Of a stretch of 22,857 nucleotides of DNA, positions 1 to 7,903 are shown piece after piece. Location of the stretch: assembly GCA_023262065.1 (NCBI GenBank), contig JALRDW010000140.1, positions 1 to 22,857 of the forward strand. Direction: 5' to 3'. The stretch is from Acidimicrobiia bacterium. GTDB taxonomy: Bacteria > Actinomycetota > Acidimicrobiia > IMCC26256. The stretch's first letter is position 1. The number at the start of each line of letters is the position of its first letter. Below the pieces are notes generated by a model. That model had not been told where the DNA came from, did no database searches, and was given only the letters and a program-made list of their open reading frames with translations. Position numbers and translations under genes: made by a program.

Positions 1-153
1 TGGCTGGGCTGTGACATGACCCCGGAGTTGTCCGCCACCGCGGCATCGCTCCGGAAACAGTCTTTCGGATTCGGGCTCCGGGTTGGCCTCGACCTGGTCC
101 GACGGGTGATCCTGGCCGTGATCCGAAAACTTCAGGGCGACCGCAGGCTGTAG
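1..153 (+). CDS. C-terminal 50 residues of an unrecognised protein (cut by window edge)
   Basis: Frame 1 is open from the first base to a TAG at 151-153 and gives 50 residues ending in a basic, hydrophobic helix-like stretch (VRRVILAVIRKLQGDRRL). I recognise no family. It lies in a stretch of lower GC than the rest of the window (about 66% for bases 1-420 by hand count) and on the far side of a probable junction near 400-412. It may therefore belong to a different genome from the rest of the window. Whether it is a real gene end cannot be decided from 50 codons. Confidence 0.3.
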   Translation, partial: WLGCDMTPELSATAASLRKQSFGFGLRVGLDLVRRVILAVIRKLQGDRRL

Positions 154-225
154 CCGAGGGGCCAGCCGAAATGGAGTCGCCGGGGCCGCGGCTACACGCT
201 CTCCCACTCCGCCCTCGGGCTCCCC

Positions 226-594
226 TCAGTGGTTGAAGAGGAACTCCTTGGTGTTGATCAGCGCCCAGAGAGTGTCCTCGTAGGCCTCACGACGCGCCTT
301 CCTGCGGAGGGTCTCCGTCTCGGCGGAATCCTTACCGGCGGGAGCCGACGATGTCTTCCTGGACAGGTAGTCGAGCGCGACCTTCATCTCCGAGGCCTGG
401 GGCTCCCGGGCGTGACGGAAGGCCAGCTCGGCGTCCGCGGTGTTGAGGTTCCGGATCGCGCTGTAGATGACGTAGAACGCGAGGACGAAGGCGACCTCGG
501 TCCACCAGTGCAGGGCCCGCCCATCGCCGAGCCGCCGGCCCCGGCGGCGGGGGGCGGGGTGGTTCGGATCCACGAGCGCATCGGGCGCGCTCAT
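226..594 (-). CDS. Chimeric small protein: PAP2-like N-terminal membrane segment joined to a DUF1553-like C-terminus
   Basis: The frame encodes 122 residues from an ATG that overlaps the stop of the upstream flippase gene by ATGA, which suggests translational coupling. Residues 30-50 (WWTEVAFVLAFYVIYSAIRNL) resemble the first membrane helix of actinobacterial PAP2-superfamily phosphatases. Such proteins are normally more than 200 residues and have catalytic KxxxxxxRP and SGH motifs, which are absent here. From about residue 63 the sequence changes character. It ends EDTLWALINTKEFLFNH, which strongly resembles the C-terminus of planctomycete DUF1549/DUF1553 proteins. The switch falls at nucleotides of about 400-412. 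Family resemblances are from memory, not a search. I infer a broken PAP2 gene fused in frame to a foreign gene end, by assembly error or recombination. A functional 122-residue protein is unlikely. Confidence 0.55.
   Translation of the reverse strand: MSAPDALVDPNHPAPRRRGRRLGDGRALHWWTEVAFVLAFYVIYSAIRNLNTADAELAFRHAREPQASEMKVALDYLSRKTSSAPAGKDSAETETLRRKARREAYEDTLWALINTKEFLFNH
400..412. other. Probable chimeric junction (assembly or recombination)
   Basis: This is the point where the reading frame at 226-594 switches from PAP2-like to DUF1553-like sequence (residues 61-65, HAREP). The motif AREP could fit both partners, so the join may rest on a short shared GC-rich run (gctcccgggcg at 402-412). 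Sequence to the left is about 66% GC by hand count, against 77-78% in 481-600. Confidence 0.5.
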
Positions 595-1598
595 GGAGCG
601 GTGGACTCCTCGATCCGGTGGCGGGCCCCGACCGCGAAGGAGGGGGCACCGAACATGCTCACGACGAGCATGATCAGGTACCAGAGCAGACCCATGCCGA
701 CCGCCTGCCCCGTGGTCACGCCGAGCGGGGTGAGCAGCAGCGCGAGCATGCCCTCGCGGACACCGAGCCCGGCCAGCGACAGCGGCAGCACCTGGGCCAT
801 CGCCACCGCAGGGATGTAGGCGAGCAGTGCGCCGGTCGGCACCGGTGCGTCGAGCACGTGGGCGACGCACCACATCGTGACGACGAGCGAGGCCTGGTAG
901 AGCATCGCCGTGCCGAGTGCCGCCGCAGCCCGCCGGGGCTCGGCCCGCATGCGCTCGACCCCGACGTGCACCGCGCCGATGAAGCGGGTCCAGCCCTCAT
1001 CGTGGCGGTAGCGACCCGCGAGGCGCGGGTGACCGGCGAGGAACACGATGGCCATGAGTGCGGTGATCGTGATGCCGGAGGCGAGGAGCGCGATCCACGA
1101 CCGACGGGCGCCGAGCAGGCTCGGGTCGATCGCGAAGCCGATCAGGCTGAGCAGGGGGAGCGCGATGAACCCGGTGAGGCGCTCGAGCGCGACCGAGCCG
1201 AACGCGGTCGGCGCGTCGCCGATGGTCTGGGTGAGACGACTCACCCGGACCACGTCGCCGCCGATCGTCGAGGGCAGGACGTTCCCGACGAACTGGCCGG
1301 AGAAGTAGTGGGCCACGAGGGTCCGCATGCGCACGGTGCGGTCGAAGACGATGAGCACCCGCTCCCAGCGCCAGGCCGAGAGGACGATCCCACCCATCGC
1401 GCACCCGAATGCCCCGGCCAGCCAGAACACGGTCGAGAGGTGCCGCTGCCGGGGGAGCGCGGTCGAGAGGTCGACCCGCGAGATGAGCACGGCCAGGAGC
1501 ACGACGCTGACGGTGATCCGCACCCAGAAGCCGAGGCGTCGCTGCGGGGGCTGGCCCCCGGGCGCGGGGGCGCCAGCGGTCGGGGCGGCCGGCGTCAC
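591..1598 (-). CDS. Lysylphosphatidylglycerol synthase transmembrane-region / YbhN-type flippase-like membrane protein
   Basis: This 335-residue polytopic membrane protein has about eight hydrophobic segments, starting with FWVRITVSVVLLAVLISRVD. It carries hallmarks of the PF03706 family (AglD/YbhN/MprF membrane domain): a YFSGQFVGNVLPSTIGGDVVR-like motif near residues 93-113, then ALERLTGF, and SLAGLGVREG near residues 274-283. The family is associated with moving or anchoring lipid-linked substrates in the inner membrane; the substrate here is unknown. The start is a GTG at 1598, eight nucleotides after a TAGGCT hexamer, which suggests a nearly leaderless transcript. The stop overlaps the ATG of the next gene (ATGA), so the two were probably one operon. 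In related genomes a PAP2 phosphatase after such a flippase would be plausible, which fits the broken PAP2 start downstream. Confidence 0.85.
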   Translation of the reverse strand: MTPAAPTAGAPAPGGQPPQRRLGFWVRITVSVVLLAVLISRVDLSTALPRQRHLSTVFWLAGAFGCAMGGIVLSAWRWERVLIVFDRTVRMRTLVAHYFSGQFVGNVLPSTIGGDVVRVSRLTQTIGDAPTAFGSVALERLTGFIALPLLSLIGFAIDPSLLGARRSWIALLASGITITALMAIVFLAGHPRLAGRYRHDEGWTRFIGAVHVGVERMRAEPRRAAAALGTAMLYQASLVVTMWCVAHVLDAPVPTGALLAYIPAVAMAQVLPLSLAGLGVREGMLALLLTPLGVTTGQAVGMGLLWYLIMLVVSMFGAPSFAVGARHRIEESTAP

Positions 1599-1723: not shown

Positions 1724-2557
1724 ATGCAGGTCACGGTCGACGACGGCACCACCCTCGAGGTCGAGGTCACCGGCACCGGCCCGGCGCTGTTCCTCGTCCA
1801 CGGGTTCGGCGGGGCGAAGGAGGACTTCGCCGACCACGTCGACTGGCTCGCGTCGGACCACCGCGTCGTCGTCTTCGACCACCGAGGCCACGGCGCGAGC
1901 GCGAAGCCGGACGCGGCGGAGGCCTATTCGCTCGACCGGATGGCCGCCGACGTGCTGGCCGTCGCCGACCACCTCGGCGAGGCGCGCATCCGACTCCTCG
2001 GGCACTCGATGGGCGGGATGGTGGCGCGTCGGGTCGCGATCACCGCGCCGCACCGACTCGAGGCGCTCGTCCTCATGGACACCTCGCACGGTCCGCTCGC
2101 CGCGATCGACGGCGACCTCATCGAGATGGGTGCACAGATCGCCCTCACCGAGGGCATGCCGGTGCTCAAGGAGATCCTCGATGCCGGCAGCCCGCTCGAC
2201 AACCCGGCGTACCAGCGACTCCTCGAGGAGCGCCCCGGGTACCAGGAGTTCCAGGACCGCAAGTTCGCCGCGCTCTCGGCCGTGATGTGGGCGACGATGG
2301 CGCGTGCGATCCGCGACCAGTCCGATGACCTCGAGCACCTCGCGGGTCTCGACGTCCCGACACTCGTCATGGTGGGTGAGGTCGACCTGCCGTTCATCGA
2401 CCAGAGCCGGTCGATGGCCGAGGCCATCCCGGGGGCCACGCTCGCGGTCATCCCCACGGCCGGCCACTCCCCGCAGTTCGAGGCTCCCGAGGCCTGGGCC
2501 GCGGTGATGGCCGAGTTCCTCGCCACGGTCGGCGCGGTGGAGGGCTCCGCCGCCTAG
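1724..2557 (+). CDS. Alpha/beta-fold hydrolase
   Basis: This 277-residue protein has a complete alpha/beta-hydrolase catalytic set: oxyanion-hole motif HGFGG (26-30), nucleophile elbow GHSMGG (93-98, Ser95), acid in VGEVD (Asp221) and histidine in TAGHSPQFE (His248). Residues 51-57 (FDHRGHG) are the usual strand-4 motif. Members hydrolyse esters, lactones or C-C bonds, and the sequence does not show which. The length is normal for a cytosolic esterase or 3-oxoadipate enol-lactonase-like enzyme. I chose the ATG at 1724 because the homology-like sequence starts there; the frame is open further upstream without family features. Its TAG stop at 2555-2557 interlocks with the TAG of the convergent thioesterase gene in a single CTAG. 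Confidence 0.88.
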   Translation: MQVTVDDGTTLEVEVTGTGPALFLVHGFGGAKEDFADHVDWLASDHRVVVFDHRGHGASAKPDAAEAYSLDRMAADVLAVADHLGEARIRLLGHSMGGMVARRVAITAPHRLEALVLMDTSHGPLAAIDGDLIEMGAQIALTEGMPVLKEILDAGSPLDNPAYQRLLEERPGYQEFQDRKFAALSAVMWATMARAIRDQSDDLEHLAGLDVPTLVMVGEVDLPFIDQSRSMAEAIPGATLAVIPTAGHSPQFEAPEAWAAVMAEFLATVGAVEGSAA

Positions 2558-3035: not shown

Positions 3036-4433
3036 ATGATCGACGACGACGTGCTCCAGCGGACCCTCGACGTCGCGCTCCGCACCGGGGGCGAGTTCGC
3101 CGAGGTGTTCGTCGAGGACCGTGTGGGATCGAGCGCGTCCCTCGATGACGGCCGGGTCGAGGAACTCGGCTCCTCCCGTCGGCGCGGTGCCGGGATCCGG
3201 GTCGTCGTCGGGGACACGACCGGGTTCGCCCACACCGCCGACCTGTCCGAGGCCGGTCTGCGGGAGGCCGCCGAGGCCGCAGCGAGCGCGGCGAGTGGCG
3301 GGGGTGGTGGCTCCCGGACCATCGCACTGTCCCGGCGTCCGGCCGAGCCGACCCACACGGTGCGCGAGCGGCCCGAGGCGATAGCGAAGGCGATGAAGGT
3401 CGACGCGCTGCGCCGGGCCGATGCTGCGGCCCGGGAGGAGCGGGCCGAGGGCGGCGCGATCCAGCAGGTGAGCGCGTCGTACGCGGACAGCGTGCGCCGG
3501 ATCCTCATCGCCAACTCCGACGGACTGCTGACCGGCGACGAGCAGGTGCGCACGCGGTTCTCGGTCTCCTGCGTGGTGAACGGCGACACCGGGCTCCAGA
3601 CCGGATCGGAGGCGCCCGGCCGCACCCTCGGGTGGGAGATGCTCGACGCCTTCCCGCCGGAGGAGATCGCGCGCGTGGCGGCCCGGCGGGCGCTCTCGAA
3701 GGTCCACGCCCGACCCGCGCCGAGCGGCCGGTTCCCGGTGATCCTCAAGCGGGGGGCCGGGGGCGTGCTGTTCCACGAGGCCTGTGGTCACGGGCTCGAG
3801 GCGGATCTCGTCGCCCGCGACGCGTCGATCTTCCGCGGTCGGGTCGGCGAGCGCGTGGCATCCGATCTCGTCACGGTCGTCGACGACGGGCGCATGGCCG
3901 AGGAGTGGGGCGCGCTCGCGATCGACGACGAGGGCACGCCGACCCGGCGCAACGTGCTCATCGAGGGTGGCGTGCTCACCGACTTCATGTGGGACCGTCT
4001 GCGGGCGCGCAAGGAGGGACGGGCCAGCAGTGGCAACGGCCGGCGGGAGCGCTACGACGTGCTGCCGATGGTGCGCATGACGAATACGTACCTCGAGCGC
4101 GGGACGGCCGAGCCGGACGACATCATCGCCGACACCGAGTTCGGCGTGTACTGCGTCGCGCTCGGCGGCGGGCAGGTCGACCCGGCGACCGGCGACTTCG
4201 TGTTCGGGATGACCGAGGCGTACCTCGTCGAGCACGGCGAGATCACCGCGCCGCTGCGCGGAGCCCAGCTCATCGGCAACGGCCCGGAGGCCATGCGCGC
4301 GGTCGACGTGGTCGGGAACGACTTCGAGACCTGGACCGGCATGTGTGGCAAGTCCGGACAGAGCGTGCCCGTCTCGAGCGGCCAGCCCACCCTGCGCGTG
4401 GCCGAACTCACCATCGGGGGAACCGCAGCGTGA
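3036..4433 (+). CDS. tldD: TldD family metalloprotease (active subunit)
   Basis: This 465-residue protein spans the full TldD/PmbA family fold. It has the zinc-binding HExxxH motif (HEACGHGLE, His247, Glu248, His252) and a C-terminal GMCGKSGQ whose Cys437 corresponds to the third metal ligand known in E. coli TldD. TldD pairs with TldE to form a heterodimer that cleaves unfolded peptides; in E. coli it matures microcin B17 and degrades CcdA. Here the substrate is unknown. A GAGGAG at 3025-3030 sits 5 nt before the ATG, a good ribosome binding site. A glycine-rich stretch at 88-92 is a probable loop. tldE follows 67 bases downstream, separated by a mini-ORF whose GTG overlaps this stop codon. 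Confidence 0.93.
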   Translation: MIDDDVLQRTLDVALRTGGEFAEVFVEDRVGSSASLDDGRVEELGSSRRRGAGIRVVVGDTTGFAHTADLSEAGLREAAEAAASAASGGGGGSRTIALSRRPAEPTHTVRERPEAIAKAMKVDALRRADAAAREERAEGGAIQQVSASYADSVRRILIANSDGLLTGDEQVRTRFSVSCVVNGDTGLQTGSEAPGRTLGWEMLDAFPPEEIARVAARRALSKVHARPAPSGRFPVILKRGAGGVLFHEACGHGLEADLVARDASIFRGRVGERVASDLVTVVDDGRMAEEWGALAIDDEGTPTRRNVLIEGGVLTDFMWDRLRARKEGRASSGNGRRERYDVLPMVRMTNTYLERGTAEPDDIIADTEFGVYCVALGGGQVDPATGDFVFGMTEAYLVEHGEITAPLRGAQLIGNGPEAMRAVDVVGNDFETWTGMCGKSGQSVPVSSGQPTLRVAELTIGGTAA

Positions 4434-7453: not shown

Positions 7454-7903
7454 TCAGGCGCGGCGACGGTCGGGCACGACGGCGAGCGTGAGCGTGCCGG
7501 CGGTGGTGGCGAACGCGACCCGGGCGACGAGGGCGCGGGGGACCGCCAGGGTCACGCCGCGGGCGGTGGGATCGGCGTCGTCCCGGTCGACTGCGAGCAC
7601 GGCGAACGCCTCGCCGACCGCGCGCGTCGGTTCGGACCCCGGGTACCGATCGGGGTCGAGGGTCACGAGCAGGTCGACCCGGTCGCCGGGTCGGACCCGG
7701 GCCACGGGGGCGACGACCCGCACCGCGCGCGAGTCGGCGGCGGGGCGCGGCGTCCGGATCGTCCGGGCCGGGGTGGGACGCCGCGGGGCCGGAGTCTCAC
7801 GGCCGAGAATGCCGAGGCCCGACGCGAGGTCGGCGACGGCGATGAGGACGAGCGCGGCGGCGCCGAGGCGCGGCGCGAACGAGCGCGAGGGGATACGGGC
7901 CAT
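7454..7903 (-). CDS. RcpC/CpaB-like domain protein, membrane-anchored
   Basis: This 149-residue protein has a hydrophobic N-terminal segment (14-34), a Pro/Arg/Thr-rich linker (38-55) and a domain starting RVRPGDRVDLLVTLDP (69-84). It then has AVLAVDR and a terminal VTLAVPRALVARVAFATTAGTLTLAVV. The last part matches the pattern of the RcpC domain of Flp-pilus CpaB proteins. The usual SAF domain before it is missing or reduced, and no other tad/flp pilus genes are in the window, so its role is unclear. The ATG at 7903 is preceded by a G-rich run and a 12-bp palindrome (7908-7919). It lies 79 bases downstream of the fmdB-like gene and may be cotranscribed with it. Confidence 0.65.
   Translation of the reverse strand: MARIPSRSFAPRLGAAALVLIAVADLASGLGILGRETPAPRRPTPARTIRTPRPAADSRAVRVVAPVARVRPGDRVDLLVTLDPDRYPGSEPTRAVGEAFAVLAVDRDDADPTARGVTLAVPRALVARVAFATTAGTLTLAVVPDRRRA

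Follow-up and report, generated by a model that had tools for sequence, protein, structure and literature searches.

The window analysed here, i.e. the whole of contig C3 (22,857 bases) from a 300-contig draft genome with a stated completeness of 79.28%, carries at its left end a reading frame that begins like a PAP2 phosphatase and ends like a DUF1549/DUF1553 protein. This raises the question of whether the frame is a gene, the trace of a recombination or a product of the assembly. We conclude that the contig is almost certainly a metagenomic chimera, in which host chromosome extends from 402-413 rightward and Verrucomicrobiales-like DNA has been joined on as the left 401 bases.

The fused reading frame

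The frame at 226-594 (minus strand) is present in the sequence and has 122 residues when read from its ATG; with its upstream extension the ORF finder gives it as 226-873, 215 aa with a GTG start. It joins two unrelated halves. Residues 1-64 are the start of an intact 262-aa PAP2 database protein (P0126), and the last 60 residues are identical at 59 positions to the end of an 873-aa protein from the Verrucomicrobiales MAG SYEM01000051.1 (locus L004), which bears out the preliminary description of a PAP2-like start and a DUF1553 end in one frame. The ORF finder shows that the frame stays open across the join, which speaks against a chimera, though long open frames are common in GC-rich DNA.

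A Pfam search at E up to 1 returned no family for the 122-aa frame, whole or in pieces, each half being only a gene fragment. Neither PAP2_3 (PF14378), of which the frame holds the N-terminal 64 residues only, nor PSD1/DUF1553 (PF07587) was found in it, the window part corresponding to L004 residues 810-873, mostly beyond the PF07587 domain at 598-827. The full 873-aa L004 protein matches both PF07583 (DUF1549) and PF07587 (DUF1553), and the 59/60 identity makes the tail homologous to a complete member of the family. When homologs of the fused frame were listed among proteins of up to 213 aa, a listing that probes for the same fusion and not for an intact gene, all ten obtained from 28 candidates covered 50-51% and ended in EFLFNH, i.e. 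in the DUF1553 half. The 122-residue fused frame is an artefact without the status of a gene, and the actual PAP2 gene is intact elsewhere.

The PAP2 gene continues on a second contig

Searching the genome itself with window 1-700 revealed one second place: window 402-528 is identical over 127 bases (100%) to positions 4202-4328 of contig C68, which is 4328 bases long, so that the match forms its very right end. The features on the host side of the join are as follows.

402..528, plus strand: exact 127-base overlap with the right end of C68 (4202-4328), the true left neighbour
403..594, minus strand: PAP2_3 gene, N-terminal 64 residues, with the remainder on C68 3606-4201 (minus strand)
591..1598, minus strand: LPG_synthase_TM gene (PF03706), its stop codon overlapping the PAP2 start codon; true host neighbour
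1724..2557, plus strand: alpha/beta hydrolase gene (PF00561), true host neighbour in conserved order

The C68 frame at 3606-4328 (minus strand, 240 aa) matches PAP2_3 (PF14378) with an E-value of 2.5e-45 and 155.1 bits against a cut-off of 27, and the whole of it equals residues 23-262 of P0126, its first match (100% identity, full coverage; best 120 of 3222 proteins). Beyond residue 64 the window reads PQASEMKV, whereas P0126 reads LIDLQRAL. The real PAP2 gene runs from window position 594 leftward into C68. The 90% cluster of P0126 comprises 10 member sequences with 46 contigs given, the longest of 22,243 bases; these contigs may not be independent of this assembly, P0126 being listed with '-' for sources, as are the window's own proteins. 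Organism names stand against six of the 120 proteins (best 120 of 3222) and read Actinobacteria, Actinomycetes, Actinomycetota and Acidimicrobiia, from which we infer a probably actinobacterial host. Neither the window's right end nor C68's left end has an end overlap in the genome, where six weaker matches, at 67-89% identity, lie elsewhere.

Gene order in related genomes

Placing C68 before the window predicts the order LysR, VOC, PAP2, LPG_synthase_TM and hydrolase, where the first two are names assigned without a family search and the other three were checked against Pfam. This order was found on one contig in three of the four relatives fetched, namely in G003 (a single contig) and G001, both of the same genus, and in G014, of the same order, where the VOC match is partial (residues 7-116 only). 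The block is divided between two contigs in the fourth, G002, with the break inside PAP2. In that genome, also of the same genus, PAP2 is likewise split at contig ends (C163 and C179; L117 and L118), and the protein matches overlap at residues 88-136. Across 61 genomes, own genome included, 59 contained a PAP2 match with an E-value of 0.001 or less, some of these being weaker paralogues.

The left arm and its donor

The left arm contains the ends of two convergent genes.

1..153, plus strand: foreign arm; last 50 residues of a family-2 glycosyltransferase whose gene is truncated at the contig end
226..401, minus strand: foreign arm; C-terminal end of a DUF1549/DUF1553 (PSCyt2/PSD1) protein, encoded convergently to the glycosyltransferase

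The glycosyltransferase end, which the preliminary description did not mention, is identical to L004 at 48/50 residues and 148/153 bases, and the full L004 glycosyltransferase matches PF00535. Over 413 bases, window 1-413 shows 87% identity to L004 DNA and is collinear with it through both genes. When public genomes were scanned with the 59-residue tail (best 80 of at least 364 stretches), L004 came first at 98% and the next match stood at 68%. Among the matches listed, the eight after L004 were also titled Verrucomicrobia or its groups, and the first planctomycete match reached 49%. The assignment of the frame's end to the DUF1549/DUF1553 proteins stands, and the planctomycete origin originally proposed for it gives way to a Verrucomicrobiales MAG as nearest relative.

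No match to the 873-aa L004 protein turned up in any of 60 relatives, while the own genome yielded this tail alone, in a search that detected the 64-residue tail and had no full-length positive control. A PF07587 family search of the own genome gave no match, but neither did its controls, and window 1-600 had no match among plasmid records.

The base composition agrees with the earlier figures of about 66% GC on the left and 77-78% at 481-600: GC is 65.8% for 1-401, 73.1% for 402-594 and 71.6% for 402-22857, and a count by eye of bases 481-600 gave 93/120 (77.5%). A GC content as low as that of 1-401 was seen in 39 of 1516 tiles of 401 bases (74 unmasked contigs, with C3 taken from base 402 on), so GC by itself is no proof of a switch. 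By order-3 Markov log-odds, trained on the own contigs versus the flanks of one 6-kb verrucomicrobial locus (a small set), 1-401 lies below all 55 tiles of the remaining window.

The breakpoint and the origin of the join

The window and C68 diverge at 401/402, and the window and L004 match through 413, which delimits a zone common to all three.

402..413, no strand: breakpoint zone, identical in window and C68, 11 of 12 bases identical in L004

In the 40 bases outside this zone, identity falls to 17/40 with C68 on the left and to 10/40 with L004 on the right. Sequence comparison places the end of the foreign part and the beginning of the host part within 402-413, where the switch had been suspected (about 400-412).

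Different source organisms lie on either side of a sharp breakpoint, and the native alternative occurs in this genome and is preserved in its relatives. The chimera is supported by the C68 overlap, the intact database protein, the gene order kept in relatives and the two-gene match of the arm; the initial suspicion of a mis-joined contig end, with some 400 left bases to be set apart, was well founded, the foreign arm being 1-401. The foreign DNA would have been joined through a GC-rich stretch common to both sides, about 12 bases long at most, and a chimeric insert or read may then have been taken into the contig end. Usual assembler k-mers are longer than this stretch, so that a library chimera may be likelier than an error in the assembly graph alone.

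Could the join be natural? Real recombination would have placed verrucomicrobial DNA in the PAP2 gene of part of the host population, leaving both arms natural, and both versions do occur in the genome, the foreign arm on C3 and the native one on C68. We regard this as very improbable, given that the arm contains the ends of two genes, one of them truncated where the contig stops, arranged as in one Verrucomicrobiales MAG to which it shows 87% DNA and 96-98% protein identity, that relatives retain the native gene order and that similar arms occur at other contig ends of this genome. That a minority of the host population carries such a recombinant, joined at the 12-base GC-rich stretch, is equally hard to credit.

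Least plausible of all, to the point of being negligible, is that the PAP2-DUF1553 fusion is a real gene and the DUF1553 tail a mobile C-terminal module. Two proteins, P0001 and P0003, do combine the tail with different N-terminal parts, at junctions close to that of the window frame, but their contigs are shorter than 800 bases (781 and 743 bases), as those of chimeras might be, and their N-termini are unlike each other: P0001 weakly resembles ECF sigma factors, at an E-value of 0.0014 that misses the Pfam cut-off, and P0003 has no Pfam match. They are also the only clear cases of a replaced N-terminus among 125 proteins aligned to the L004 tail (ten fused-frame homologs plus the best 120 of 345, some in both), with replacements sought within the 120-residue query; they belong to seven of the 125 that lack more than 12 residues at the query start, and a third of these, P0027, has a replacement over 9 residues. 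P0001 and P0003 are probably chimeras too. We also considered a fusion hot spot in the DUF1553 tail, but two clear cases among the 125 do not suffice for a decision. At this locus a mobile module is further disfavoured by the intact P0126 and the conserved gene order.

Other contig ends of the genome

The survey of contig ends covered 109 of the 300 contigs, all of them unmasked, with 217 ends in total. Divergent end arms were present on two further contigs of the 109, C20 (244 bases) and C86 (48 bases). The right end of C65 (L193) shares 122 bases with C20 (L148) 245-366, where a branched-chain amino acid permease (PF02653) is carried in part by each contig, continuing from C20 onto C65, and C20 1-244 is a different arm. 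This 244-base arm contains a predicted helix-turn-helix-like reading frame. The first 74 bases of C32 (L160) equal C86 (L213) 7768-7841, and the last 48 bases of C86 diverge.

At 97% identity and above, the overlaps of one contig with another measured 74, 87, 114 (97%), 122, 127, 129 and 223 (99%) bases, and two more overlap matches, of 100 and 69 bases, each lay inside one contig (C53 and C83). Unmerged end-to-end overlaps were seen for C89/C99 (129 bases), C91/C121 (87 bases), C18/C94 (114 bases, 97%) and C116/C122 (223 bases, 99%). The idea that the 127-base overlap reflects the assembler k-mer size was rejected, as the overlaps vary.

On a practical matter, quality control should trim the left 401 bases from the contig, and the fused protein should be kept out of protein databases and not be counted as a cross-phylum gene transfer. 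Furthermore, the remaining contig ends of this genome should be examined in the same way, because two more contigs carry divergent end arms.

Comparison with known assembly artefacts

The paper on COBRA (Chen and Banfield 2024, PMC10914622) deals with contigs that overlapping ends allow to be linked, and describes such overlaps as arising where the de Bruijn graph has several paths; in our case, too, the end of one contig recurs within another at a fork. The overlaps described there take their fixed length from the k-mer size, whereas those of this genome range from 74 to 223 bases. According to the passages of Chen et al. 2020 (PMC7111523) that deal with chimeric metagenome contigs, two-organism chimeras are a rare product of assemblers and become visible in paired reads, coverage and phylogenetic profiles; coverage and paired reads are named there as further signs, whereas the present case is argued from sequence. 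The likeness to those chimeric contigs lies in the structure itself, two organisms being joined in one contig with phylogenetic profiles that differ between its two sides.
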